Source: Thermodesulfomicrobium sp. WS (GTDB lineage Bacteria; Desulfobacterota; Desulfovibrionia; Desulfovibrionales; Desulfomicrobiaceae). Taken from it: a stretch of 64,000 bases of DNA. The stretch is from assembly GCF_027925145.1 (NCBI RefSeq), contig NZ_AP027130.1:496001-560000 (forward strand). The letters are read 5' to 3'. The position numbers and the translations under genes were made by a program. Under the pieces are notes generated by a model. The model was not told the origin of the DNA, made no database searches, and saw only the letters and a program-made list of their open reading frames with translations. Every line of letters starts with the position of its first letter. The stretch's first letter is position 1. Positions 35,203 to 62,566 of the stretch are shown one piece after another.

Positions 35203-36450
35203 ATGCTGGATGTTCGCGCGCTTGTGGCAGCCCGGCGGGTGGTGGTGCATTTTCAGCCCATCGTCAGTCTCCGGCGCAGGCAGGTCATCGGCTATGAGGC
35301 CCTGGCTCGGGGGGTTGGCGAGCATGGGTGGATCTCCCCTCTGGCGCTTTTCGAGGCCGCTCGGCAGCAAGGCTTGGCCCTGGAACTGGACCGCCTGTGC
35401 CGCGAAACCGCGCTGCGGACCTTTGTCGCGTCGTCCCTGGGGTCGGTCATGCTCTTCCTCAATGTGGACCCTACGGCCCTGAACGCGACGGTGGTGGGGT
35501 CCCAATGGATTCGCCGCATGGCCGAGGAGGTCGGTATTCCCCCCTCCTCTGTGGTCATTGAAATTGCTGAGACGCAAGTGACGGATGCCCAGTTGTTGTA
35601 CGATTTTGCGAAGCAATATCGGCAGCAGGGATTCCTTATCGCCTTGGACGATTTCGGCGCCGCCCACTCCAATCTGGACCGCCTGGCCCAGGTGGCCCCG
35701 GATATCATCAAGATCGACCGCGGTTTGGTGCAAGGCGCCCATCAGTCCCCTGCCCGCCGCCTGCTGCTCCATTCTTTGGCGGACTTGTGTCGTCGCCAAG
35801 GCGCTCTGGGGCTTGCAGAAGGGGTGGAAAACGCTGCGGAGGCCTTGGCTTTGGCCGCTGCGGGCTTTGACCTCTTCCAGGGGTATTTTTTCGGCCGGCC
35901 AGCGGAGGCGTCGGTGGCATCGGCCGATGGAGCGGCCCAGGCGGTCCATACCCTGGCAAGGGAGTTCGAGAAGTACCGCAGGCGTTGTCTCGTGACCGCC
36001 AAACGTCGTTCCCGAGAAATGCTGCAGCGGGTGCAGGAAATGGTGCACGTGCTTCGGCAATACGATCCTTCCGAGTTCGCAGCGGTGCTCGAAGAGATCG
36101 TCGGGCTTTCCAACGATGTGGACTGTATTTTTGTGACCGACGTCCGTGGTATTCAGATAAGTACCACCGTGTGTCAGGATCGCGAGCATAGAAACGGGGG
36201 CTTACTTTTCCAAAAAGCGCCTCCAGGAACGGATCATGGAATCAAAGACTATATCGCTGTCCCGAGAAGATTACATAAAGAATGGTATATATCCAATCGT
36301 TATGTATCCTATGCAACGCGGTCAATATGCCGGACAGTTTCGTATGCATTTCAGGCAAGAGACGGGCGCACCTATTTTTTGTGCGTTGACTTTACAGAAG
36401 ACAATTTCGATCAGCTCTTTCCGGTTGAAGACCATGACAATGATCTCTAG
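35203..36450 (+). CDS. EAL-domain cyclic-di-GMP phosphodiesterase with C-terminal sensor
   Basis: A 415-residue protein. The EAL domain (residues 10-250) keeps the catalytic signature: YEALARG, the Asn of FLNVDP, EIAETQ, LDDFGAAHSN, IKIDRG and AEGVEN. The loop after DDFG departs slightly from the usual TGYSS. The C-terminal 150 residues (LEEIVGLSNDVDCIFVTDVR onward) resemble the sensor of the preceding MCP-like protein, so the pair may read the same signal and feed chemotaxis and c-di-GMP together. GGGAGGTAGCC precedes the ATG; its stop overlaps the convergent CARF gene by 4 bp. Confidence 0.88.
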   Translation: MLDVRALVAARRVVVHFQPIVSLRRRQVIGYEALARGVGEHGWISPLALFEAARQQGLALELDRLCRETALRTFVASSLGSVMLFLNVDPTALNATVVGSQWIRRMAEEVGIPPSSVVIEIAETQVTDAQLLYDFAKQYRQQGFLIALDDFGAAHSNLDRLAQVAPDIIKIDRGLVQGAHQSPARRLLLHSLADLCRRQGALGLAEGVENAAEALALAAAGFDLFQGYFFGRPAEASVASADGAAQAVHTLAREFEKYRRRCLVTAKRRSREMLQRVQEMVHVLRQYDPSEFAAVLEEIVGLSNDVDCIFVTDVRGIQISTTVCQDREHRNGGLLFQKAPPGTDHGIKDYIAVPRRLHKEWYISNRYVSYATRSICRTVSYAFQARDGRTYFLCVDFTEDNFDQLFPVEDHDNDL

Positions 36451-37550
36451 TGGAGCCCAGAGTCGAGGAGGTCGAGTACAAGCGAGTCTCCTTCATAATG
36501 AAGGAATATACGCTTGGCTTCCCCAGATGCCCATGCGTCGCATTCATGGGTGGAACCATTGTGTTCTTGGCGGAGTTTTTTGAGATCCAGGCGATTGATG
36601 TTACCGCCTCTTGGGCCGCAATGGAAGCGGGTCAGATCCAGGATGCGTTCGTTGATATGCGCCTTCTCTGCTGCGCTGCATTTTTCGGTGGAGGAGAGAA
36701 AATCTGGTCCGAATTGGATCTTGGGATCCACAGACTCCCAAATGCGCTCCTGAAAAAGCCGTTTTCGCCCTTCGTTCCAGATGAGTTCGCCCCAGATGGA
36801 GAAGGTCACCATGCCGTCCAGTTCCATGAGCAGCGTTTCCGGGACCTGACGTGCGTCTTGGCTGCGTACCGGAAGGCCGGCCGCGAGGCGGCGGAATATC
36901 CTGTGGTGCTCGCGGACAATGGTAAGGGCGTCGGGCTCGGCGAGGGGAAGTTTGGGCAGCCGCAGCAGCTCGGAGGTGTTTTCAAAGATGGAAATGCTTT
37001 CATCGGCGTATATCATCCCCAGGGCCTGCATGAAGCCTTGGACACTCTTGAAGCCTCCGGTGAGATTGAACACGACGCGGTAGCCTCGCTGGCGGTAGAA
37101 TTGGATCTCGTGCGCGCAGAGACGGACGATTTCGCTCATGGCCAATCGGAACGCCTCCAGGTCGCTCGTGCGCAGGTCCGTGATGCGCTGCACGCAGGCA
37201 CTGTGGCCATGGCGCTGGAGCGTCGCGGCAATGGCCGTGGCGGCTGCTTCGCCAAGGAAGGTGTCGGTGGCCAGGAGCAGGTGATGGGTGTCCCTTGGCG
37301 CCTTGAGATCCCCATGGAAGAAGCGGACGATGGCATTGAGCTCGGCGCTGAGGCGGCACATTTCCGTGACGCTTGCCTCCTCCAGGCGTTTTTGGGCTGT
37401 GGTGATACAGGCGCGGAGCGCTGCGCGCGTTGCTGCATCCAATGCATCGGCCCTGGGGACATTGGCGTGGGCGTGAATACATTGGCGCGCCTCGGGATTG
37501 GTGTTCATCAGCAGGCTGGTGCCGCAGGTGGAAACCATGAGTGTGGGCAT
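36447..37550 (-). CDS. CARF-domain CRISPR effector with RelE-like C-terminus (Cami1-like)
   Basis: A 367-residue protein of the TIGR02619/APE2256 CRISPR group. The CARF domain opens with MPTLMVSTCGTSLL, has the NLTGGFKSVQGF loop at residues 162-173 and continues to about 200. A middle region (205-290) looks winged-helix-like. Residues 298-367 read like a RelE/ParE toxin, with ECDAWASGEAKRIFLHYEG and a terminal LDLLDSGLH. CARF-RelE proteins (Cami1) are cyclic-oligoadenylate-activated mRNA interferases. The CARF call rests on clear motifs; the RelE tail is inference. The start at 37550 has GAGGACGCCGG. Confidence 0.72.
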   Translation of the reverse strand: MPTLMVSTCGTSLLMNTNPEARQCIHAHANVPRADALDAATRAALRACITTAQKRLEEASVTEMCRLSAELNAIVRFFHGDLKAPRDTHHLLLATDTFLGEAAATAIAATLQRHGHSACVQRITDLRTSDLEAFRLAMSEIVRLCAHEIQFYRQRGYRVVFNLTGGFKSVQGFMQALGMIYADESISIFENTSELLRLPKLPLAEPDALTIVREHHRIFRRLAAGLPVRSQDARQVPETLLMELDGMVTFSIWGELIWNEGRKRLFQERIWESVDPKIQFGPDFLSSTEKCSAAEKAHINERILDLTRFHCGPRGGNINRLDLKKLRQEHNGSTHECDAWASGEAKRIFLHYEGDSLVLDLLDSGLH

Positions 37551-37765: not shown

Positions 37766-37964
37766 CGTGGCCAGCAGCCGGGAATTCTTCCTGTGAAGAG
37801 CCGAGGGGGCCCATCCTCCCTGCTTTTTGGGGATGTGCGGAGAACAATCCTGATACGGTGCGTTCGCCGCTGCTTGTTCGCCGAGGGGCATTGGCATACA
37901 GGCGGAACCAAGATGGCATGAAGGTTTCGTTTTTTGTCTGTCACTGGGAAATGCAGGAGGTTTG

Positions 37965-39200
37965 ATGGACATGGATATCCAAAAGGCTCAAGTAAATACT
38001 CTCATCTCTTTGCTTGGGAAAAGTAATCTTGACAGTAAAACAGGTTATCGCGTGACGTGCTACCGTATGCCCAACGGAGAAGAGCGAAGCACCGAATACT
38101 TCGGATTGGCGCTTGCGGAATATCTGCAAGTACGCCGTATGATTCTGATTGGTACTGCGTCGAGCATGTGGGACCTGCTTGTGGAAAACGTCGCTGGCGA
38201 CGATGCCGCTGAAGAACTCCGGATCATGCTCTTCGATGCGGTGCGCGCCGGCACCGTCAGCGAAGACCTGCTTGGGAAACTTGCCCCAGCCATTGAACAG
38301 AAGGTAGGGCGCAAGGTGACTCCTCTCGTCATTTCCTCCAGCGTCACCTTTGCGGAGCAGCAGGCCTTGCTCTTCCGTCTCGAGGAATTGCTGCAAAAAG
38401 ACGAACGGGTGGCTCTCGATCTCACCCATGGTTTTCGGCATCTGGCCATGCTGGGGTTGGCGGCCTCCCGTTATCTGTCGCACGAACGCGGTGTGCAGGT
38501 GGTCGGGCTCTACTATGGGGCCTTGGACATGACCCGGGATGGGATCACCCCGGTGGTCACCGTCGATGGCCTGGCGCATCTGCTCGAATGGGCCGAGGCC
38601 TTCGAGGGCTATGATGCAAGCGGCGATTTTTCCCGCTTCGCGCCGCTGTTGAAGCGGGACGGATTGGCGCATGAGGCGGCCGATGCCCTCGAGCGGGCTT
38701 GGGGGCTGCTTCAGGTCAGCAACGTCAGCGACGCCGCACGAACCCTGTATTCAGCGTGGAAGAAGCTGGAATCGCCCCTCACCGGAGCCTCCGAACTCTT
38801 CCGTAAGCGCCTCCAGAAGGCACTCCGTTGGTGTCAGGCGCAGCAGTTGTCGGAGAAGCTGCGCCTGCTCGCGCTGCAAAGCCTCGGGCGCGGAGATGTC
38901 CTGCGCGCCGCCGTGTTCGGCTTTGAGTGTACGCTTGTCCGCGAGGTGGAAGAAGCCGGCGGCAATCCCCTCGACTACGAGCAGCGCAAGGCGGCGGACG
39001 ATCGCCTGCAGGAGGCCTTCAAGGGAGGGGAGGAAGGCCCTGATTGGAAGCGCCACGCCTATTGGCTGCTCAAAAATGTGCGCAATGCCTGTGCCCACAG
39101 TGCGCCACCGCGCAATACCAAGCACGCTGAACTGATGCGTAACCCTGAGCGGCTGCGGCGTGAGCTCGATGCGACGTTGAACCGTCTGACCAACACATGA
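37965..39200 (+). CDS. csx2: Csx2-type CARF-HEPN ribonuclease (DxTHG family)
   Basis: A 411-residue CRISPR ancillary effector of the TM1812/Csx2 group. The CARF domain occupies residues 1-210 and includes the family motif DLTHG (152-156). The C-terminal HEPN RNase domain carries RNACAH (RxxxxH, Arg373 and His378). Such proteins bind cyclic oligoadenylate made by Cas10 and cleave RNA non-specifically. AGGAGG at 37955-37960 precedes ATG at 37965; a second ATG two codons later is possible. It is the only plus-strand gene of the island, facing the Lon-type protease gene. Confidence 0.88.
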   Translation: MDMDIQKAQVNTLISLLGKSNLDSKTGYRVTCYRMPNGEERSTEYFGLALAEYLQVRRMILIGTASSMWDLLVENVAGDDAAEELRIMLFDAVRAGTVSEDLLGKLAPAIEQKVGRKVTPLVISSSVTFAEQQALLFRLEELLQKDERVALDLTHGFRHLAMLGLAASRYLSHERGVQVVGLYYGALDMTRDGITPVVTVDGLAHLLEWAEAFEGYDASGDFSRFAPLLKRDGLAHEAADALERAWGLLQVSNVSDAARTLYSAWKKLESPLTGASELFRKRLQKALRWCQAQQLSEKLRLLALQSLGRGDVLRAAVFGFECTLVREVEEAGGNPLDYEQRKAADDRLQEAFKGGEEGPDWKRHAYWLLKNVRNACAHSAPPRNTKHAELMRNPERLRRELDATLNRLTNT

Positions 39201-39224: not shown

Positions 39225-41219
39225 TCAGTGATAGGTGTAGGGGAAAAATCGGGCTGGCTGGCGGGCGACCAGGTCCAGGACCGCTGGGGCGTCCAGGTCC
39301 AGCAGCGGCGCGAAATGCGGCGGGTGCAGCAGCTCGCTGCGCACCGGAGCCAAGGCCTGTGCCACCGGTTCTTCAGGGATGCAAACCCCAAGGCTTTGGA
39401 GCAATGCCAGGGGCAGCAGCGCCATGACCTGCACCGTGGGGCCCATGCGGGCGCACCATTGGGCGCTTCTTTGCGCAAGCGCGCGGGCGGCCTGGGGATC
39501 TTCGTGCGCCAGATGCCGGGCCAGATTCACGGCCACGAGCTGCCAGGGGTGGCGCGCCTCGCCGTCCTGGTCCACGCGCTTGCGGATGGCGGCAGTGACG
39601 TCAGGCGCAAGGGGCAGGCGGGCGTCGCCGGACACCCGCAGCAGGGCGTGGAGTTCGTAGGCATTGAGGGCCGCGACTGTGCCGCGGCGCTGGATCAGGG
39701 CGTTCAGCTCCGCGGCGGCTTGCGCGTGCTCGCCGGCGCTCGTCCAGGCCATGATGGCGTAGAGCTGGTCGCGCTCGATGTCGTCCCACCTGCCGGTGCG
39801 GGGGGCGCAGAAGGCCTCCTCGGCCTTGCGCAGAAGGGCGATGCACTGCGGGAGATATGCAGGACCGAGAAAGCCGTAGTGCTGCCCCAGGGTGCCGTAG
39901 TATTGGCCGAGGATGATGCAGGGGCATGGCCCGAAGCGTTGGCGGCGGCGCTCCCAGACGGACTCCAGCTCTTCCAGGGCTTCGCGTTCGTGGGGGTTGA
40001 GGGGCAGTGCGGGCGGAAAATCGTAGCGGTTGTGGCGCTCACCGATGGCTTTGATGACGGCGTGGAGCACAATGCTTTGTGGACCGTCTTCCTGGTAGGG
40101 TACGGCAGACTCGTGCTGCAGGGCGATGGTCTTCCAGGCGGCAAACGCCGTGACATCGCCGCGGTGGTTGGCCCGTTCCATTTGGAGCATGGCGAGCTTC
40201 CAGGCAGCCTGGGGTTGGTGGTCGGCCACGGTGGCGTTCATGCATGCGAGGAGGGCTTCTTGAAGATTTTCCGGAAGCTTGGGGAGGGCGTCCACCAGCC
40301 GGTTCAGGTCTGGAGCACGGCAGAGGGCGCGGGTGATCTCGTGGCGCTGGTGCCGTACCCAGGGGGCAAGGGCCCCGGGGAGCGTGGCGAGCTCTGCGGC
40401 CAGAGCGCCGGATCCCGGCTGGGAGAGGGCGCTTTCCAACAGGCGCTGGGTCACGAGGAGTTTGGCGGCGGCTTCGGGGCTGCGGGCCCAGCGCAGGATG
40501 GCCCAGGCCTCGTCCAGGGTGGTCACGGCCACGGCGTGGGGGCATGGCGGCGCGGCGCAGCCTTGGGGGTAGAGGAAAAGGCGTCCAGGGCATTGGGCCT
40601 TGGTGGCGACCTCGGCCACGGGCAGGACATGGCCTTGGAGGTCGAGGCCGCCGGTGGCGATGACGTCTTCGGGAAGGGCGAGGTCGTCGAGGGCGGCCAG
40701 GGCGGCCAAGGCGCACGGCAGGGCCAACGACGCCCCCACCAGCCGTTCGTGGGGTGCCAGAGGCAGGAGGCATGGGGTGCGGCCGCGGCGCTGCGCCACC
40801 ACCTGGGTCACGGTGACGGCGGCGTGGCGGGCGGCGGTATCGGACCACAGGGCGGCGGTCTTTGCCTCGGGCAACGGGCCAAAGCCCACCAGCACGTGGG
40901 CCAGCACCGCCCCTTCTGGCCCAGCGGTGGGTACCAACGCCAGCCGCCAGGGGGCGTGCTCCAGGACGTCCAAGGGCACGTCCCATAGCCCGCGCGCCAG
41001 GGCGGCGATGTGGGGGCGCGCCCACGCGGGGCGGTGCTGGGGCCAGAGCAGGTGGCAGGCCACAAGCAGCCGGGAAAACGCCGGGGGCGCGGCGGCGAGG
41101 ATGCGATCAAGGGTTGGCCCCTGGGCGTGTCTGCCCCAGATGCCAGGATGAGGCGGGATGGCAAAAGATGCCACCCCGTCGGCGAGGTCGAAGTCCAGGG
41201 AATCCAGATTACCGGGCAT
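39225..41219 (-). CDS. Lon-type (S16) serine protease domain with helical repeats, no ATPase
   Basis: A 664-residue protein. Residues 130-245 align with the Lon proteolytic domain: a serine in LVGASLALP (Ser164) and a lysine in VAEVATKA (Lys207), exactly 43 residues apart as are Ser679 and Lys722 of E. coli Lon, with the bridging TGGLDLQGHVLPV matching Lon TGxxxLxGxVLPIGG. No AAA+ module is present. Residues 250-664 are helical and TPR-like (YAIMAWTSAGEHAQAAAELN). The start at 41219 overlaps the unknown gene upstream by 11 bp. Compare CalpL, a SAVED-Lon CRISPR protease; I see no SAVED domain here. Confidence 0.7.
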   Translation of the reverse strand: MPGNLDSLDFDLADGVASFAIPPHPGIWGRHAQGPTLDRILAAAPPAFSRLLVACHLLWPQHRPAWARPHIAALARGLWDVPLDVLEHAPWRLALVPTAGPEGAVLAHVLVGFGPLPEAKTAALWSDTAARHAAVTVTQVVAQRRGRTPCLLPLAPHERLVGASLALPCALAALAALDDLALPEDVIATGGLDLQGHVLPVAEVATKAQCPGRLFLYPQGCAAPPCPHAVAVTTLDEAWAILRWARSPEAAAKLLVTQRLLESALSQPGSGALAAELATLPGALAPWVRHQRHEITRALCRAPDLNRLVDALPKLPENLQEALLACMNATVADHQPQAAWKLAMLQMERANHRGDVTAFAAWKTIALQHESAVPYQEDGPQSIVLHAVIKAIGERHNRYDFPPALPLNPHEREALEELESVWERRRQRFGPCPCIILGQYYGTLGQHYGFLGPAYLPQCIALLRKAEEAFCAPRTGRWDDIERDQLYAIMAWTSAGEHAQAAAELNALIQRRGTVAALNAYELHALLRVSGDARLPLAPDVTAAIRKRVDQDGEARHPWQLVAVNLARHLAHEDPQAARALAQRSAQWCARMGPTVQVMALLPLALLQSLGVCIPEEPVAQALAPVRSELLHPPHFAPLLDLDAPAVLDLVARQPARFFPYTYH

Positions 41220-42195
41220 GGGATGCGGAGTCGTCCACGAGCAGGAGCAGCGGTCGGCCCATGAGGTAGGATTCGGTCCCGTGGCCGGGAAAATCGGCGC
41301 GGAACATCCCGGTGTGGGGGTCCAGACGGCAGACCCCTTCTCGCAGGTGGAGCTTGTGCTGCCACCAGGCGTAGAGCGTACCCTTGCGCGCTGCGGGATC
41401 CAGGACGCCGGTGATGCGGATGGTGTCGCCATCGAGCCGGCGCTGGTATTGGGTGGCAAAGAAGCCGTGGCACGGCATTTCCTGCGCTTCTCCCAAAAGG
41501 ACGCGGGTATAGGGGATGGGCTCCGGGGTGTCGGCCGCGGCCACAGCGGTCAGTTCCGGGGGCAGCGTGGCGGTGGCCAGGGCGCGCCAGGGGTCGAGGT
41601 CTTCAGGCAGTGCGATGCCTGGGTGAAAGCGCAGTACTCGGCGGCGGGTGGCCTCGGCGGCGCTGGCGTCCAGGTCGCGGCTGCGCAGGACCATGAACTG
41701 GGCCACGTCTGCTTCCAGGAGCCGGAAGGCGGCGATCCCGGAGTCTTCAGGCACGCAATACTCTCCCTGGGCGGCCTCGCGCACGGCGTGCAGATGCCCC
41801 GAAGAGACGTCTCCCAAGTGGTGCTCCAGCGCCTGGACGGGGAGGATGGCGGTGTTCCAGGCCTCGGCCAGGCCCTGCCCTGGGCCGAGGGGTACGTCTC
41901 CTGGCCCGGCCAACTCCGGGGTGTCGAAGAGCTGCGCCCCCCATAGGCGCGCCCCGGGGAGCACCTCCAGCACCAGCACCAGGGGCGGGTGGATGTAGCG
42001 GCCCGGATGCAGCCAGCCCCCCAGGCGCTGGGCAAGGCTCCAGATTTGGCCGGCTGCGGGTTGGGGGCGCTCGTCGGGGACGAGTTCTGGCCAATGGACG
42101 CTTGGGGCCTTGCGCGGCCACGGCCACGGTGTTCCTGTGGGCGGCAGGGTGCGCTCGGTGAGCATCAAGCGCCACGCGGCGCGGAGCAGAGACAT
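41209..42195 (-). CDS. Unknown protein between sigma-like and Lon-type genes
   Basis: A 328-residue protein I do not recognise. It has no signal peptide or transmembrane segment, is rich in Pro, Leu and Trp, and shows few cysteines. Recognisable segments are AEAWNTAILPVQALEHHLGD in the middle and DDSASHAR at the end. AGGAGGCCGCT precedes the ATG; it lies 9 bp after the sigma-like gene and overlaps the protease gene, so all three are co-translated. By position it could be an anti-sigma or adaptor that the protease cuts, or a ligand sensor; this is inference only. Confidence 0.7.
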   Translation of the reverse strand: MSLLRAAWRLMLTERTLPPTGTPWPWPRKAPSVHWPELVPDERPQPAAGQIWSLAQRLGGWLHPGRYIHPPLVLVLEVLPGARLWGAQLFDTPELAGPGDVPLGPGQGLAEAWNTAILPVQALEHHLGDVSSGHLHAVREAAQGEYCVPEDSGIAAFRLLEADVAQFMVLRSRDLDASAAEATRRRVLRFHPGIALPEDLDPWRALATATLPPELTAVAAADTPEPIPYTRVLLGEAQEMPCHGFFATQYQRRLDGDTIRITGVLDPAARKGTLYAWWQHKLHLREGVCRLDPHTGMFRADFPGHGTESYLMGRPLLLLVDDSASHAR

Positions 42196-42204
42196 AGCGG
42201 CCTC

Positions 42205-43149
42205 CTATGGTTGGCGGCAGTCCACCTGCTGGCACAAGACGTCCCAGAGGCGCTCACGAAAGGCCTCGAAGAGGCTGGGGTCCAAGTCCGCCTCGCCAAG
42301 CCCGGCATGGGGTTCGAGCACCTGCCGCAGGGTGAGATAGGCGCGCTTCTTGATGGCCGAGATGCCGCATGCGGCCGCATACCCCAATGCCCGGGCGGCG
42401 TCTTCCATGCGCCAGCCGCAGTGTTCCAGATAGCACAAGACCAAGGCAGCCTTGGGTTCCAAACTTTGGGCCGCGGCCAGGACAATGGCCTCGAGGCGGC
42501 CGCGCGTGATGGCGGCTTCGTAGTCGGTGGCCTCTCCCAAGCGTTGCAAAATACTGGGGCTGTCTTCCTCGGCGTCCGAACCTTCTTCCAAGGAGATTTC
42601 GTCGCGGTCGTAGATGCTTGTGTCATAGTGCTGGCGCAGGAAGGCGCAAAACTCCCGCAGATGGATGCTCGGGGCATATCCCAAAAATGCTTTTGCCTGA
42701 TGGAAAAAGTGGAGCGCCACTTCGAGAATGTCTTTGGAGTTGCGAATATCTTTGTTTGGAAGCAATTGGGGTTGGAAGTTGCGTTCTCGAAGTTCCTTGT
42801 ACGCCGGCAGCGGCTGGCCTTGAGGATCTCCGTAAGCGGCATAATCCCCGCGCAGATGATACCCTGTCTCGGGAAATTGCTTCAAGGATTGCCGCACCCG
42901 TTGGTAGAGCAGGTCCCGTTTTTGTTCTTGGAAGAATTTTTTCTGGAGGTAGCGTATCTTGGCACGGATGGCGTCGATGTTTTGGGTCGCCACCAAGTGA
43001 TGGAAGTGGAGATCGTTGGCCAGTCGCTCCTGCAGAAAGATCCAGAGGTCATGGAGATGGTCGAGATCGCCCCTATGAAGGGTCTGGCGTAAAAGATCCA
43101 GAAAATCCTCACTGCGAAGCCATTGGTGGATGGTTGCGTTGGCCGTCAT
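42205..43149 (-). CDS. Sigma-factor-like protein (region 4-type HTH)
   Basis: A 314-residue cytoplasmic protein. Residues 222-280 read like sigma region 4: EPKAALVLCYLEHCGWRMED, then AARALGY and ISAIKKRAYLTLRQVL, i.e. a helix-turn-helix after the usual L-P-x-x-x-R-x-V-L-x-Y-L pattern. The N-terminal 180 residues are helical and basic/aromatic (YLQKKFFQEQKRDLLYQRVR), and I cannot prove they are region 2. An acidic linker (EEGSDAEEDS, 188-196) separates the halves. No good ribosome binding site precedes the ATG. First gene of the triad with the unknown protein and the S16 protease. Confidence 0.6.
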   Translation of the reverse strand: MTANATIHQWLRSEDFLDLLRQTLHRGDLDHLHDLWIFLQERLANDLHFHHLVATQNIDAIRAKIRYLQKKFFQEQKRDLLYQRVRQSLKQFPETGYHLRGDYAAYGDPQGQPLPAYKELRERNFQPQLLPNKDIRNSKDILEVALHFFHQAKAFLGYAPSIHLREFCAFLRQHYDTSIYDRDEISLEEGSDAEEDSPSILQRLGEATDYEAAITRGRLEAIVLAAAQSLEPKAALVLCYLEHCGWRMEDAARALGYAAACGISAIKKRAYLTLRQVLEPHAGLGEADLDPSLFEAFRERLWDVLCQQVDCRQP

Positions 43150-43553
43150 GGAAGGATTTGGGGTTGGTGGTGGAGGATCGGGCGCAGGCCGCGTTGTGGG
43201 CGCTGCGCCATGCCAGTGCCCCCATAGCGCACGGCCGCAGTGATTTCAACGCACTTGCCGGGCCGTCGCCTGCGGTGTGCATGCGGCGCTCAAGGCCAAC
43301 CGCAATGCGCAGCCATGCAGCATCCCCCCAGCCGCACGGCTCCTTGGTTCTGATTGTTTCCCGTAAAACCGCTTGGGCCTGCAGTCCCCTCGAATCGGGT
43401 CATGCAGTCAGAGCGAACTGGGCGCCCGAAAGAACTTTCGGTGGAGAGGTGATGCGGAGGAACGCGGTGATCGGAGCGCCGCTCCTACCAGAAAAACTGC
43501 AAGCGACACCCCGATCACCGTGCTTCATTGTTGGTGGAAATCGGCAAGATGCC
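43150..43553. other. Gap with an eroded CRISPR repeat
   Basis: 404 bp between the sigma-like gene and the small secreted protein gene. GC-rich up to about 43380, with no convincing gene. It contains the degenerate repeat at 43385-43413. The promoter of the sigma-like operon should lie here but no good element is visible. Confidence 0.5.
43385..43413 (-). repeat. Eroded CRISPR repeat, outermost
   Basis: 29 nt identical to the array repeat from TCCCCTCGAATC to the end, except for one change (CATGCAG for CATGCAT). The first 7 nt of the 36-nt unit are not conserved. It lies about 1.0 kb beyond the array. Confidence 0.75.
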
Positions 43554-43856: not shown

Positions 43857-43986
43857 ACAATCCTCCTTGGGTTTTTGGTTTCTTTTTATTTCATTTGTGT
43901 TGAGCATATCTCGTCATGTCAATCTGTGGACGAAAAGCCGAAGGGAATCGAGTTTCTAAGCCGGAGTTTCTTTTCTATCGTCTCGA

Positions 43987-44022
43987 GTATTAATTCCATC
44001 GAATCTGGTCATGCATCCAGAA
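43987..44022 (-). repeat. Eroded CRISPR repeat
   Basis: A full-length 36-nt copy with six mismatches to the array consensus (for example TCGAATCTGG for TCGAATCGGG, and CATCCAGAA at the end). A weaker, interrupted copy lies at about 44359-44391 (TCGAATCCGG ... GCCATGCATTGGAGA). Confidence 0.65.
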
Positions 44023-44128
44023 TGGGGGTGGTTGTGGCATAAGAAATGGATAGAACATGGCGGCCTTCCTGTTTTTTTGAGAGTTACTCCGGTGAGTTGT
44101 GGTCGCGGGGCCGTTTGCTCCTTCCGTG

Positions 44129-44423: not shown

Positions 44424-47400
44424 GTCTTCCTCCCCTCGAATCGGGTCATGCATTCAGAGGCACGATAAAAACCACCCGATAAAAACTCTGTGCACCAGTC
44501 TTAATCCCCTCGAATCGGGTCATGCATTCAGAGAACATCGATAATCCTAACCAACAGGCGGTAGCCATCGCGTCTTAATCCCCTCGAATCGGGTCATGCA
44601 TTCAGAGCGTCCATCGAGGGATTGACGGAAATGGTAGTGTTCGCTGTCTTAATCCCCTCGAATCGGGTCATGCATTCAGAGAGAGATTATGACCGGATTC
44701 TACCACAAGACCAACCAAAGTCTTAATCCCCTCGAATCGGGTCATGCATTCAGAGCGGATACGTGGAGGCGCTGGGCGTATGGCGCCGTGTCTGTCTTAA
44801 TCCCCTCGAATCGGGTCATGCATTCAGAGCCCCTCCCCCGCCAAGCCGTGAGTGGCGGTAGTAACCAGTCTTAATCCCCTCGAATCGGGTCATGCATTCA
44901 GAGTTCATTGTGGCGGGAGCTGTCCGCGGGCTCGTCAGTGTCTTAATCCCCTCGAATCGGGTCATGCATTCAGAGCAGTCTCTGACCGGATTTTCACAGC
45001 GTGCCGCGGCTAGTCTTAATCCCCTCGAATCGGGTCATGCATTCAGAGAACGCATGCAGTACGTGCAAAACGTACTGCAAAAGACGTCTTAATCCCCTCG
45101 AATCGGGTCATGCATTCAGAGCGTGGCGCATACCATGGAGCATCTCGTCAAGAGACGAGTCTTAATCCCCTCGAATCGGGTCATGCATTCAGAGAACGCT
45201 AACCCTACCAACGCTAACCCTACCAACGCTAGTCTTAATCCCCTCGAATCGGGTCATGCATTCAGAGGAGCGCAAAACAGCGCCGTCAACGGCCGAGCGG
45301 AAAAGGTCTAGTCTTAATCCCCTCGAATCGGGTCATGCATTCAGAGGAGCATCTCACCCCGACCCAGCGCCGGGCACTGGTGATGTCTTAATCCCCTCGA
45401 ATCGGGTCATGCATTCAGAGCAGGCGTGAGGCGTTTGCCCAGCTGTTGGGCGCCCCCAGGTCTTAATCCCCTCGAATCGGGTCATGCATTCAGAGGACAA
45501 TGTCCAACCGGGCGCTCCGTGAGGCCGGATTTAGAGTCTTAATCCCCTCGAATCGGGTCATGCATTCAGAGCACGACGAGGCTCCAACTGCGCCTCGCCA
45601 GGACCTGCTACGTCTTAATCCCCTCGAATCGGGTCATGCATTCAGAGAAGACAGCTTGCAGGGCGTATAACCTTGGCCGCCGCCCAGGTCTTAATCCCCT
45701 CGAATCGGGTCATGCATTCAGAGGGAGGTGGGCCAACAGAGGAATTCTCCCCCCGCCGGTGCGTGTCTTAATCCCCTCGAATCGGGTCATGCATTCAGAG
45801 AAATGGCAAATAAGCTTTTTGCTGAAGCGCGGGGCTAGTCTTAATCCCCTCGAATCGGGTCATGCATTCAGAGATAAGCGACTACGCAAACTGTTTTAAT
45901 GTACAAAGTGTCTTAATCCCCTCGAATCGGGTCATGCATTCAGAGCAAGGCAAGCAGGAGTCAACGAGGGCGAGGGATAGGCCGTCTTAATCCCCTCGAA
46001 TCGGGTCATGCATTCAGAGAATTTGCCAGAGCGCTAGAGATTCGCGACTCGAACGAGTCTTAATCCCCTCGAATCGGGTCATGCATTCAGAGCGGCGCCC
46101 TCGAGGCCCTGCGCACCGAGGAGCACCAAGTCTTAATCCCCTCGAATCGGGTCATGCATTCAGAGTAAAACTATGTTGAAAAAATAACCATAGGAGAACC
46201 CAGTCTTAATCCCCTCGAATCGGGTCATGCATTCAGAGGGAAGCAGGTTTATGAGTTGTCAGTTGAAATTGATTTGTCTTAATCCCCTCGAATCGGGTCA
46301 TGCATTCAGAGCGACGGCGTGGCGCTTGGGTGTTTCCGTTTGGCAACCGGTCTTAATCCCCTCGAATCGGGTCATGCATTCAGAGGAGATGCGGGCAACA
46401 AAGAGCGGCACAGGGCACTATCTCGTCTTAATCCCCTCGAATCGGGTCATGCATTCAGAGCTGGTTTTTTGAGCAGCCTCAATCCAGCCAGCTGTTCATG
46501 TCTTAATCCCCTCGAATCGGGTCATGCATTCAGAGAAGTCAAGGCGCCGTTCTTTGGTGCCTTAGCGCTTCTAAGTCTTAATCCCCTCGAATCGGGTCAT
46601 GCATTCAGAGATGGTCTCCGGTTCGACCCGGCCCCGGTGGGCCATATCGTCTTAATCCCCTCGAATCGGGTCATGCATTCAGAGCCGCCCAGGCCGACGT
46701 TTTGCGCCGGGCGGAGGGCTCCGGAGTCTTAATCCCCTCGAATCGGGTCATGCATTCAGAGCCATCGCGTCAACCAAACAGCGTTCGAGGCCGCTTTTGT
46801 CTTAATCCCCTCGAATCGGGTCATGCATTCAGAGCATCGCGTCAACCAAACAGCGTTCGAGGCCGCTTTCGTCTTAATCCCCTCGAATCGGGTCATGCAT
46901 TCAGAGGCAAGAAGGGAAGCCTAAAAGGGCTTCCCTTTTTTTGTCTTAATCCCCTCGAATCGGGTCATGCATTCAGAGGCGAGGTTGGTGCTTCGGATTT
47001 TGGCCACTACATCCAGGTCTTAATCCCCTCGAATCGGGTCATGCATTCAGAGCAAAATGGAGCAAACCCTTCTTCGTTCAACCAAAACGTCTTAATCCCC
47101 TCGAATCGGGTCATGCATTCAGAGTCCCCAAACGAGCAAGAGCTAGAAGAGCTCTCGCGAGACGTCTTAATCCCCTCGAATCGGGTCATGCATTCAGAGA
47201 TTGGCAATGACAAGGTGTCCGTGGATACCCTAGTTCAAGTCTTAATCCCCTCGAATCGGGTCATGCATTCAGAGATCGAGTATGATGGCGAGTGGTACGA
47301 CATGCGCTATCTGTCTTAATCCCCTCGAATCGGGTCATGCATTCAGAGCCAGGCGTGTCGCAGACAAGATCTTCACGGCATGTCGGTCTTAATCCCCTCG

Positions 47401-47637
47401 AATCGGGTCATGCATTCAGAGTTTGGGGATAAATGACACATAAAAAAGGAGAAAAAGTCTTAATCCCCTCGAATCGGGTCATGCATTCAGAGTATGAGCT
47501 TTTACTGTCGCGTGAACCAGGAAGAATGTGTCTTAATCCCCTCGAATCGGGTCATGCATTCAGAGTTTTCTGGCTGCTCGGAAGAGCAGCTGATTGAATG
47601 GGTCTTAATCCCCTCGAATCGGGTCATGCATTCAGAG
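44424..47637 (-). CRISPR. Type III-B CRISPR array, 44 repeats, 43 spacers
   Basis: 36-nt repeats that begin GTCTTAATCCCC and end CATTCAGAG on the plus strand. 43 copies (44498 to 47637) are identical as far as I can read; the leftmost, at 44424-44459, has AA changed to CC at positions 6-7. Spacers are 35-43 nt, mostly 36-39. Read on the minus strand the repeat ends in ATTAAGAC, a typical 8-nt crRNA 5' handle. The degenerate repeats lie on the left and the cas genes and leader on the right. Transcription is therefore leftward from about 47.72 kb. Cas6 at the right edge is the expected processing enzyme. Confidence 0.97.
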
Positions 47638-47766
47638 TGCGGATGGAGGGAGCCCATGTGGGGAGCGGGTTGGCGCTGGTGCGTTCACGAATCCTCCGAT
47701 TTTTTTGCCCTCGGGAAATGCTGGGTGATGTTTTTTTAGCCAAAATTGTCCTTGTTTTCAAGGGGG
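47638..47766 (-). promoter_or_regulatory. CRISPR leader with promoter
   Basis: 129 bp between the csx2-csx16 stop and the first repeat. On the minus strand TTGAAA (47756-47761), 17 bp, then TAAAAA (47733-47738) form a plausible promoter reading into the array. A/T runs dominate 47697-47760, as is usual for leaders. Confidence 0.65.
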
Positions 47767-49371
47767 TCAGTCACTCATGGATCGGTTTTTGTCTGGAGCT
47801 GTCTTTTCCGTGGGTTGGGTGGCGGAAGCCGACGGAAGGGCCAGGTCCGTGGGTGGGATGGTTTCGCGCTCTCGAACCTCGAACTCGTGCAGGCGGGCGC
47901 CGTAGTGCTCCATATCGTCGGCGGACAATTCTTCTCCCCGGGCCTCTGGTGGGAGGTTCAGGGAAAGAAATATAAATCTTGCTCCGCGCTGGCATACTTG
48001 GGCGGCCAGGTGGATGGGCAGGGTGCCGATGACGATGTCACCGGGTTGTATGTTCTCCGGGTCGAGGTGATCCACCATGCGGGAGATGCTGATCCCCTGG
48101 CGCTTTGCCCACTCTTTGGCCCCGGGATGCCGGGAGACGAACCATACGCTGCCGGTGGACGTTGGAGGCTCGATGCGGCCAGAGGCGGCGAAGCGCTGCA
48201 CTTCGGCCTCGAGGCGGGGGCGGACCTTGTCTTTGGGCAGGGGGCGTTTCTTCATGCCGCCGTGCTGGATGTCGTTGCGCACCTCGGCCACAGGACCGGC
48301 GATATCCCGTATCTCGGCAAAGACGGCGTCCCAATGGCGGCGTTGGGCTTCGTCGAAGCCGGGCTGGGTAGGGCAGGTGGCCTCGGGCGGGGCCAGGCGG
48401 CACGTCCAGCCTTCGCGCAGGACCACCGCTGCCTCGGCCAGGCGGCCCCAATCAAGGTAGAGCTGGGCCAAGGCCGCGAGGGCGTTGTGGCCGGCATCCG
48501 ATGCCAGGTGGTTTTCCGTGAGGGACAGGGGGCGCAGCATCGCTTCCAAGCGGTTCATGGGTTCCTGGAGCACGGGGAGGCGCTCTTCCAGCTGGGGCCG
48601 GGCGATGGCGATGGCCTTCAGCAGGCCGGTGACCAAGGAGGTTTTGCCGGGAGCAGACGGGAGGAGGAGCTCGCCGATGCGGATGCCGTCCAGGGCCTGG
48701 CAGGTGCTGCGCAGGGCGGTCGCCAAGCCGAGCAGTTGGGGCGGGTCGCCCTGCCTGCCAGAAAGTCCCCAGGTTTTGCCCCAGGCGCGGCCGGTACTCT
48801 CGGCGAGATCGGCCAGAGCGGTGCCATGGCCGGTGGCGAGAAAGGTGGCGATGGCTGTGCTCCAGTCTGCGGTCTCCACGAAGGCGGTCAGGTCCCAGAT
48901 GGGGGCCTCGTTGTGCTCGTTCTTGGCCTCGTAGGCGCCGTAGAGGACGTGGATGGGCTGGGACTCTCCCAGGGCGCGGTAGAGGTGCAGGGCCGCGCCG
49001 GCAAAGAACGGTTGGGAGCGAAAGCCGTGGGTAATGTCCACCACCAGCGGGGCGGAGGTCGCGGTCATGGTATCGAGCAGGGTGCGGAAGTTGTCCTGCA
49101 GCTCCGTGGGGGTTGCGCCGTTGGTGATGGGGACGATTTGGGGCTGCTCGAGCCCTGCCTCGGTAAAGGCGGCGGCGATGTCTGCCCCGTGGGTTTCCAT
49201 GGCCTTGGCCGTGGCGAAGATGGTGGTGCCCCCTGGGCCAAGGAGCTTGCGGATGGCCAGGGCGGCGTAGCGGGTTTCGACCCCTGGGCCTTCGGGGTGG
49301 AAGCGATAGGTGACAGGCTGATAGTTTCCCGTGCCGAGAAAGGAGATGAGGTGGGGGCTGGCTTCGTTCAT
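47767..49371 (-). CDS. csx2: CARF-HEPN effector fused to Csx16
   Basis: A 534-residue fusion. Residues 1-190 form a CARF domain of the TM1812/Csx2 group, with DITHG at 112-116. The HEPN RNase motif RNDIQH (Arg365, His370) follows. Residues 409-500 are a complete Csx16 domain (VWFVSRHPGAKEWAKRQG, PGDIVIGTLPIHLAAQVCQR, LSADDMEHYGARLHEFEV), normally a separate small protein. A 35-residue polar tail ends it. Csx16 belongs to small CARF-like proteins reported or predicted to degrade cyclic oligoadenylate, so the fusion may switch itself off. GGAGGAACC precedes the ATG; 38 bp after cas2. Confidence 0.87.
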   Translation of the reverse strand: MNEASPHLISFLGTGNYQPVTYRFHPEGPGVETRYAALAIRKLLGPGGTTIFATAKAMETHGADIAAAFTEAGLEQPQIVPITNGATPTELQDNFRTLLDTMTATSAPLVVDITHGFRSQPFFAGAALHLYRALGESQPIHVLYGAYEAKNEHNEAPIWDLTAFVETADWSTAIATFLATGHGTALADLAESTGRAWGKTWGLSGRQGDPPQLLGLATALRSTCQALDGIRIGELLLPSAPGKTSLVTGLLKAIAIARPQLEERLPVLQEPMNRLEAMLRPLSLTENHLASDAGHNALAALAQLYLDWGRLAEAAVVLREGWTCRLAPPEATCPTQPGFDEAQRRHWDAVFAEIRDIAGPVAEVRNDIQHGGMKKRPLPKDKVRPRLEAEVQRFAASGRIEPPTSTGSVWFVSRHPGAKEWAKRQGISISRMVDHLDPENIQPGDIVIGTLPIHLAAQVCQRGARFIFLSLNLPPEARGEELSADDMEHYGARLHEFEVRERETIPPTDLALPSASATQPTEKTAPDKNRSMSD

Positions 49372-59509: not shown

Positions 59510-59513
<4 letters not shown>

Positions 59514-62500
59514 GCGGCGTGCTCCTTACCGGTATGCAGGGATGTGTCCGCAGGCATGCGGGTTTCTCGGGCCAGAAATTCCGCGATAGCGAGGAAGTTT
59601 TCCAGCCACTCCTTGGGATGGGCCTGTTGCTGGGCAATCTGGGTGAGCCGTTGGGCGAGAAGGGGGGCGTGTTTGGCCGGCTCTCCTTTGGATTGGCGAG
59701 CAAGCTGGTACCCAAGCAGTGTTTCGAGAATATCGGGATGGGTTTTGGGATCCGGCAGATCGGCAAGCCACTTCAGGCTATGGTAGACTGCTCGGCGGGA
59801 TGTGGTTGGTGCCGCAAGAAAGCGGATGGTGTCGAGCAATAACGCCATGGGTTCACCCCATGGGGCCGTAAAATGCAGCGCCCCTCCTGCGCGTTTGATC
59901 ACCGTGATGGCAAAGGCGTTGCGCCCGCCCTCTTCTTTGGCGCGTTTTTCTGCGGCGCGCAGTTCCCGCAATACGGCGGAAAGTGGTGCTTGATGGTGGG
60001 CCACCACCAAGCCCGCTGAGGCCGTGGCGTTTTTTCCCATCATGCGCATGAGCCGGCCGCGGAGGAAGGCAAAGCCGTTTTTGCAGTGGAGCTGTTGGGG
60101 ATGCTGCCGCACGGTGTGCCAGTCCAGGGGCTCGTTTTCAGAGGTGATCCCACTGTACGCCTGCCGCAGGCGACTCGCGCAAGACATCAGATCTGCTACC
60201 GGCAACACTGCCAGCACATCGTCCCCGCCAGCATAGATCAGGCGGCCGAGGTGCTCTTCTTCCACCACGTGCCTTGCCACATGTTGGGAGAAATCGTTGA
60301 GGGCCGCAGAGATGGCGAGGTGCCGACCAGGGGAGACGGCGCGGCGCTGATTCCCATAGTCCCGAATCGCAGGACAACTTTGGGCAAGGTGGTCAAAGCC
60401 ATGTCGGACCTGCTTGTGGAAGCTCTCGCGGTAGGTGATGGCCGTGCCGGTGGTCTCGTCTCCGGAGAGGATGGCGCCCATATGGTCGCCGTCCATCATC
60501 AAAAGTCCATAGTAGCTTTCTAGGCGGAAGCGTTTCTTGGGAGCTGAGGCCGGAAGTCCTTGGGCCAGGATGTCGCGTACATGATGCCGGATTTTTTCCG
60601 CTTGGGATTCGTTCTCCATCTCGCTTGCTGCATCGAGCAAGGCCGGGAGGATGCGGGCCTTTTGGAGGGCCTCGGGGTGCCGCTTGCTATGGCGCAGCAC
60701 CATGCCCCGTGGCAGCACCACTGGGTCGACCTTGATTTCCGGGATGGCCGCTGCGCTGGTGTTGGCGTCGTTTTCGAGCCAAACATCAAGTTGGCGCGCC
60801 AAGGCCATGGCATGAGTGCTGACGCTGTAGCGGAAGATGTTTTTGTTCCCTAAAGCCTGCTCCACCTCCTGGGTGAAGAGTGTGGGCCACAGGCGTTTGA
60901 GGGCCGCCAGTCCTCCCAAATGTTCCCCTTGACGAGCCCACGCCGGGCGTTTGTGGGCGATCCGCGTCCAGAGAGTGTCGGTGCGCTGGCCAGGAGGCAG
61001 GGCGAGATGGGTTCTGTCTGTGGTAAGCCATTCCACGTCGCCGCAGAGAGATTCCCTCCACCCGGTCTGCGGTTTTTGATCAAAGGGGCGCGCTGTTTTG
61101 GCTGCAGCGAGCACGCGTTCCGCGAGATCATAGACTGCCGGATAGAGAACCCCAGGGTTGGGGTGGAAAAAACGCACCTGCTGACCATTGCTGGTGACTT
61201 CGATGGCCTGGGAGAGGACTTTCCATGCGGCCGTATTGAGGAAGCCGCAGGGGCGCCCGGAATCTTCCCCAAAAAATGGCGCCATGGCGCTCTGGAGATT
61301 GGTCAGATCGAGGTCGCGCTGCTTGGTGTGGTCGCGGCAGCGAATGAGGGAGAAGGGTACGGCAGCCCAATAGACTTCAGGAAAAGAAGAGAGCTGCTCG
61401 CGCATTTGGGCGTAGGCCGGGCAGAATGGATCGTCTTCGAGACCTGCTGTGGTCAAGAGACGACGCACGGTTTCTTGGCCACGGTCCTGAATCCATTGCC
61501 GTGCGCTTTCGCGGCAGGCCTCGGCCAGTTCTCGGGCGCGGCTTGCGGGCACGAGGGCAACGAAGCGGTTGGGGAGCGCTGCGGCAAAGAGCGGGTTGGA
61601 GTCACTCGCTCCTCGTTGCCATTCGCATTGTTCAAACAATTGGGCAGGCAACCCCATGGCATCCCGCAGCCATAAATCCACCAGAGCGATGCCGCGGAGC
61701 CGGGGAAAGAGGAAGGCGTCCGGTCCCAGCGCCTCTGCCACGGGCCGCATGGTCTCCCAGGCAAGACGGGACAGCAGGTGGGATCCAGCCCAAAGGTCGT
61801 CCAGTTTGCGGGCGGAAGCAATGAAGGATTGTACTGGACCGATGGAAAGGGCCAAAAGCGCTGCATCGTCCTGGGGGTCTGCGGCGAAGGCACCGGCAAA
61901 GGCCGAGGTGAGGTCGAGGTGCTCCCAGATGGAATGGTCGGGGACCCGTGTGTCCGCCGGAAGTAGCGGCCAGAGCGCCCCCATTTTCCCGTTGTCGGCA
62001 TCTTCGCTAAGCTCCGGGCCAAAGCGCCAGAATGCCAGGAGCGTTGCGCGCCAGGCGTCTTCATCCTTTCGCTCGCCGATGGCTTTGGCGAGGGCGGCAA
62101 AATGGCGGAATGCGCGCTCTTTGATGTCCGAGACGTCCGTATCATGGAGGGCGTGGAGATCGATTTCCTCTCCGGTAAGGGGATGGATGAGGATCGGTGC
62201 TGTGGTCCAGCGGACTTGAGCCCAGTTCGCCACTGGAAACGTGCGCTGCGTCCCGGACTTGGTGGTGACGGTGCGTTCCTCCATGGGCCATTGCGGTCGA
62301 TCCGCGGCTGCTGCCCACCAGTCGGCCCGCTGGATCTGGCGGTAGATATCGCTGGCAAGACTTTGCGGAAAAAGAATCTTGGCGAGCACTTCGTCGTTGT
62401 CCGGGTCTATCTGGCTGCCGAGTTGCTCGAGGCCCATGAGGCGGCGGAGCGCTCGGGAGGTCCCGTTTTCGTGGCCTTCGGGGTCCCGTAAGAGGACCAA

Positions 62501-62566
62501 GGCTTTTTCCGCGGGGTCGTGCAGCCGGGCGGCGAGCTTGGTTTGCCAAAGGCGAGCAGTATTCAT
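59510..62566 (-). CDS. cmr2: Cas10/Cmr2 with cyclase GGDD motif
   Basis: The 1018-residue signature protein of type III systems. The N-terminus has an HD-like start (LAARLHDPAEKAL, His16-Asp17), so DNase activity is possible but not certain. The palm domains follow, with LLMMDGDHMGAILSG and the cyclic-oligoadenylate synthase motif LIYAGGDDVLAVLPV (GGDD at residues 780-783). The C-terminal D4 region is helical. On target RNA recognition it should convert ATP to cyclic oligoadenylates that activate the CARF proteins of this island. Overlaps cmr3 by 4 bp and follows cmr1 by 4 bp. Confidence 0.96.

Follow-up and report, generated by a model that had tools for sequence, protein, structure and literature searches.

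What do three tightly packed genes for a sigma-like protein, a putative anti-sigma factor and a Lon-type protease do beside a type III-B clustered regularly interspaced short palindromic repeats (CRISPR) locus? The question arises in a stretch of 64,000 nucleotides from Thermodesulfomicrobium sp. WS (contig NZ_AP027130.1, positions 496,001 to 560,000; hereafter the window, whose own numbering is used throughout). Here gene A (42205-43149), encoding a sigma-70-family-like protein of 314 residues with a sigma region 4 match, gene B (41209-42195), encoding a CalpT-like putative anti-sigma factor and protease substrate of 328 residues, and gene C (39225-41219), encoding a protease with a tetratricopeptide repeat (TPR) domain, are co-directional open frames on the minus strand. 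They are separated by a gap of 9 nucleotides between A and B and joined by an overlap of 11 nucleotides between B and C, which bears out the close packing described in an earlier reading of the sequence alone (the original prediction). Translation of C most likely begins at the ATG at 41219, for a protein of 664 residues; because this codon sits within the end of B, a longer frame of 744 residues beginning with TTG is not needed. We propose that A-B-C is probably a protease-gated sigma switch of a third family, which would work in the manner of CalpL-CalpT-CalpS and Craspase but with a TPR domain as its sensor, and which belongs mostly to type III-B loci.

The same arrangement is found well beyond the window. 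Searches of related genomes, followed by iterated profiles on the fetched neighbourhoods, covered one phylum, that of the window, a group of sulfate reducers; genes in the fetched loci were called with our own script and neighbouring families were named from representatives. Contiguous A-B-C genes with order and strand kept were recovered in 27 loci from 26 genomes, representing 11 families and 19 genera, and B was conserved together with A and C. Outside the window's genus, identity to the window proteins is 14-40% (minimum 14% for A, 18% for B and 19% for C). The trees of A, B and C have correlated distances (r 0.62-0.63, a value reached in 0 of 2000 permutations), a result that an operon inherited as a block also gives. 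Between two sister species the ratio of nonsynonymous to synonymous substitution rates (dN/dS) is 0.30 for A, 0.20 for B and 0.30 for C, indicating purifying selection and thus maintenance of the module in the lineage of the window. The recurrence of one gene order in 27 loci, combined with this selection, makes the triad more than a chance association. In a check for occurrence outside the phylum, plasmids gave no match for B and two C queries, viral contigs gave none, and a scan of genome contigs, by a method that reaches close relatives only, found the sister species alone. Models from Pfam, NCBIfam and PADLOC gave at most weak hits to the family, so the triad would be missed in surveys relying on them; a survey of bacteriophage exclusion (BREX) systems (PMC12839542) contains no description of this module.

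Protein C was expected to be a Lon S16 protease domain without an ATPase, and both profile and fold agree. The domain occupies about residues 91-245 (40485-40949, minus strand). While the match of the single window protein is weak, that of the family profile is strong, with E 4.6e-15 against archaeal Lon and a weaker 1.4e-5 against CalpL. The AlphaFold2 model of C (predicted local distance difference test score, pLDDT, 88) aligns with Bacillus LonBA over 156 residues (VIA Z 19.7, root-mean-square deviation (rmsd) 3.0). The predicted catalytic residues, Ser164 (codon at 40728-40730, minus strand) and Lys207 (40599-40601, minus strand), fall in conserved columns, serine being present in 34 of 35 aligned members and lysine in 33 of 35; loss of the dyad among homologues, raised beforehand as a possible refutation, was not what the alignment revealed. 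The members that depart from this pattern are one divergent sequence and a degenerate second copy of C in locus L085 (8333-15891), which carries two C copies, one of them without both catalytic residues. The dyad of Escherichia coli Lon is Ser679-Lys722, and its spacing of 43 is that of Ser164-Lys207, as originally noted.

The remainder of C is predicted to be a TPR superhelix. Past residue 232 the model is all-helical, and residues 252-660 match the TPR superhelices of Rap, MalT domain III and APPBP2 (Z 16-19). The TPR-like domain, assigned by the model to residues 262-664 (39228-40436, minus strand), contains conserved motifs of its own and is the candidate sensor. As no strand follows residue 232, there is no SAVED or CARF alpha/beta fold in this region, in keeping with the helical repeats without a visible SAVED domain that had been described. 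Attempts to place SAVED or CARF in C or B yielded no assignment, and a weak CARF-Lon match from PADLOC (E 0.024) lay on the Lon stretch. The sensor had been sought either in the middle protein or in the repeats; the repeats are now the better candidate, since the middle protein looks like the substrate. Two further proteins combine a homologous TPR domain with DUF3800. The first lies directly upstream of a RAMP-like gene, Cmr1-like by eye (L092, 169-2376), and the other within a triad operon, between B and C (L080, 6481-8622). The presence of DUF3800-TPR proteins in type III settings suggests that the TPR part may be a type III-linked sensor module.

Protein B, previously described as unrecognised, was indeed without a match in family-library searches, and modelling revealed a probable identity. 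In the AlphaFold2 model, residues 41-148 (41752-42075, minus strand) adopt a MazF/PemK mRNA interferase fold, as judged at the fold level by Foldseek (E 5e-5) and VIA (Z 13.2, 93 aligned residues, rmsd 3.1 A). The region before it (42076-42195, minus strand) is the site at which homologues carry a C-H-C-C zinc finger of the zf-HC2/ZAS type; it is degenerate in the window. Of 29 aligned family members, 27 retain the anti-sigma-type C-H-C-C residues, and zf-HC2 is weakly matched in four members. CalpL cuts CalpT, which acts as an anti-sigma factor (PMC11417357) and of which a 23-kDa part resembles MazF (PMC9704534); the fold of B is therefore the one that a CalpT-like protein should have. This identification of B, as a MazF fold with an ancestral anti-sigma zinc finger, is new. 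Locus L085 has, in order, a sigma-like gene, a gene for a protein with zf-HC2 above the Pfam cut-off (E 8e-6), and C; this zinc-finger protein has no recognised MazF part, and its sigma partner is canonical-looking.

The sigma region 4-like character claimed for protein A is weak in the window protein and clear in the family. In the window, residues 206-277 (42319-42534, minus strand) match NCBIfam SigX5 weakly (E 2.1e-4), while the profile built from the family scores E 3.4e-6 against region 4 of the sigma factor FliA and Sigma70_r4 is detected in 8 of 25 members. Together these sequence matches support a predicted sigma region 4 in A. A region 2 may also be present, as suggested by inspection by eye and one weak match. 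The A profile matched the canonical-looking sigma in L085 weakly (10%). A sigma promoter shared by the operons was considered, but several of the extracted upstream sequences resemble ordinary promoters of the TTGACA type, as judged by eye with no motif search.

The triad is strongly, but not obligatorily, linked to type III CRISPR systems. Among the 23 Cas10-bearing genomes that contain a triad or C, Cas10 lies on the same contig within 30 kb of the module in 14, against an expected count of 0.86 at a 40-kb limit (P 6e-15, a value that takes no account of the loci's shared ancestry); in several of the remainder the module is on a short contig. The association extends to whole genomes: across 395 evenly sampled genomes of the phylum, Cas10 was present in 17 of 21 C-bearing genomes versus 103 of 374 others (Fisher P 1.3e-6). 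Moreover, cas families were found within the fetched stretch of 22 of 33 other C-bearing loci, and genes for Csx1, Csx20 and CARF-deaminase recur next to the triad. The possibility that the triad is found mostly away from CRISPR loci was therefore checked with the opposite outcome, most loci lying beside type III cas genes.

In the window itself, the flanking CARF effectors and type III-B array on which a defence role had been based are all present. A CRISPR array of 44 repeats (about 44430-47638) adjoins A, and the type III-B operon encodes Cmr1, Cas10/Cmr2 (59510-62566, minus strand) with a GGDD palm motif, Cmr3, Cmr4 and Cmr6. The effectors flank the triad on both sides, with a CARF-RelE protein (36447-37550) and Csx1 (37962-39200) on one and a Csx1 (CARF-HEPN) fused to Csx16 (47767-49371) on the other. 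Cas1 and a CRISPR-associated primase-polymerase are also encoded in the window. Between the array and A, the CRISPR repeat recurs in isolated and partly degenerate form at 43377-43435 and 43986-44044, and the sister species (L013) has the isolated copy upstream of A at the same position. Where the window has Csx1 next to C, that species encodes a CARF-adenosine deaminase and a 198-residue protein of a weakly NUDIX-like family (L013, 5241-7705); the effectors are thus swapped beside an unchanged triad.

Other partners occur in the wider family. Some two dozen loci have, immediately upstream of A, a gene, here called f4, for a protein of about 150 residues with the motif HP...CPCTS (for example L083, 5803-6279). 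It has no recognised relative and no match in the Protein Data Bank (PDB), and it was not found in the genome of the window at the sensitivity of its profile; a MazF-like identity was considered for f4 and rejected on a profile comparison of 0.4% and the lack of a PDB match. In three loci B stands beside a large DEAD-box-type helicase of approximately 990-1350 residues instead of Lon (L033, 9887-13945; L034, 5090-9142; L037, 10804-13773), and no cas genes of the tracked families are near these loci. The occurrence of f4 and the replacement of Lon by a helicase suggest that the sigma/anti-sigma pair can couple to different sensors.

How does the triad relate to systems already described? CalpL-CalpT-CalpS, proposed at the outset as the precedent, shares with it an ATPase-less Lon-type protease with a Ser-Lys dyad, a MazF-fold protein as putative substrate and anti-sigma factor and, for the window and most but not all triads, a type III location; the MazF fold and anti-sigma zinc finger of the B family and the Lon dyad of C strengthen this comparison. 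CalpS, a sigma-70-family factor of the extracytoplasmic function (ECF) kind, may have its counterpart in A, where region 4 is significant and region 2 is not. The two systems also differ. CalpL has a SAVED cyclic-nucleotide sensor whereas C has a TPR superhelix, and the Lon domain of C is closer to archaeal Lon than to CalpL. B homologues carry an N-terminal C-H-C-C finger (CalpT being known here by its published description only), and some triads are in genomes free of Cas10.

Craspase, or CASP (type III-E, comprising Cas7-11, the TPR-CHAT protein Csx29, Csx30, Csx31 and CASP-sigma), likewise joins protease and TPR domain in one protein, has a substrate that inhibits a sigma factor and is linked to CRISPR (PMC10028731). 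Its protease is a CHAT cysteine protease whereas that of C is Lon-type, and its effector is the single-protein gRAMP/Cas7-11 whereas the window has multi-subunit Cmr with separate genes for Cas10, Cmr1, Cmr3, Cmr4 and Cmr6; Csx29 was absent among the PDB sequence matches of the TPR part of C. Because SAVED, CHAT and Cas7-11 features were tested for and not found, the triad belongs to neither system. The C-H-C-C finger of B homologues beside a sigma-like gene in the same operon also recalls anti-sigma factors of the RseA/RsrA-type ZAS group with their ECF sigma factors. In contrast to these, the B family adds a MazF fold after the finger and the operon carries a Lon-type protease; in the window's B the zinc-binding C-H-C-C residues are missing.

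These comparisons are consistent with a model in which B, a MazF-fold anti-sigma factor that ancestrally had a zinc finger, would keep the sigma-like A inactive. Infection would be sensed by C through its TPR superhelix, switching C on, and the ATP-independent Lon domain would then cut B once or a few times; A, released by the cut, would start a defence regulon. The likeliest trigger would be the activated type III-B machinery, which might reach C in one of two ways: a Cmr or Cas protein could touch the TPR domain directly, as in Craspase, or a further partner dependent on cyclic oligoadenylate could relay the signal. Direct contact would fit the TPR domain of C. A more specific version, in which the triad is a third, independently built CRISPR protease cascade whose Cas10 type III-B system switches a Lon-type protease by TPR contact rather than by a cyclic nucleotide, with a sigma/anti-sigma pair that serves as a plug-in part and is coupled elsewhere to other sensors such as the helicase of L033, L034 and L037, is tentative and, in our judgement, rather doubtful.

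Several points weigh against the proposed switch. Region 2 in A is non-significant by profile, with one member at E 0.057, and the B profile gives a probability of 0.2% against E. coli MazF, such that the likeness exists at the fold level only. The zinc finger has been lost in the genus of the window, including from the window's own B, so that A, if still held there, would be held by other parts. The P value for proximity to Cas10, as stated above, takes no account of shared ancestry. Several triads are in genomes without Cas10 (E <= 1e-9), including the single-contig genomes G002 and G568; type III is thus not the sole trigger, or the module has been re-used. Finally, the computation extends to the gene set with its conservation and selection, the conserved dyad, the region 4 match, the type III linkage and the predicted folds of B and C; that B binds A, that C cleaves B, and what trigger and regulon are involved, we infer.

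Some of the same observations bear on other explanations. If cyclic oligoadenylate bound the C-terminal domain of C, or B, directly, as in CalpL, the TPR would be merely a new ligand pocket. In the window, the GGDD cyclase motif is present in Cas10 and CARF effectors of a kind that depends on cyclic oligoadenylate lie nearby; genes for Csx1, Csx20 and CARF-deaminase recur beside the triad. Yet the part of C past residue 232 offers no SAVED or CARF fold, the recognised fold of B is MazF, and because a minority of triads are in Cas10-free genomes this molecule cannot be assumed to be a universal trigger; we consider direct binding unlikely. The Cas10-free triads would also suit a general stress or anti-sigma module that is not specific to defence and merely tends to sit in defence islands, as would the triad locus that adjoins curli genes (L089) and another with the same neighbour families (L088). 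Such a module fits poorly with the enrichment of type III cas genes, which is both local and genome-wide, and with the related TPR domain of the two DUF3800 proteins, one encoded next to a RAMP-like gene and the other within the operon of a triad, and we judge it decidedly improbable. The MazF fold of B raises a further explanation, in which A is an ordinary regulator and cleavage by C releases a MazF-type RNase that acts on mRNA, as was first proposed for CalpT (PMC9704534). Against this are the anti-sigma zinc-finger residues of the B family, the conservation of A as a co-diverging partner, and the later finding that CalpL-CalpT-CalpS acts by sigma release (PMC11417357), all of which leave toxin release with very little probability.

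In the literature found, a sigma factor is the end point of only two CRISPR protease cascades, CalpL-CalpT-CalpS and Craspase. If the protease-gated sigma switch proposed here is correct, A-B-C would be a third such cascade, combining Calp-like parts (the Lon protease and the MazF-fold substrate) with Craspase-like parts (the TPR sensor and the sigma factor), and sigma release by proteolysis would be a strategy that type III immunity uses repeatedly. The switch would also raise the question of how a Cas10 system signals to an effector that has neither a CARF nor a SAVED domain.

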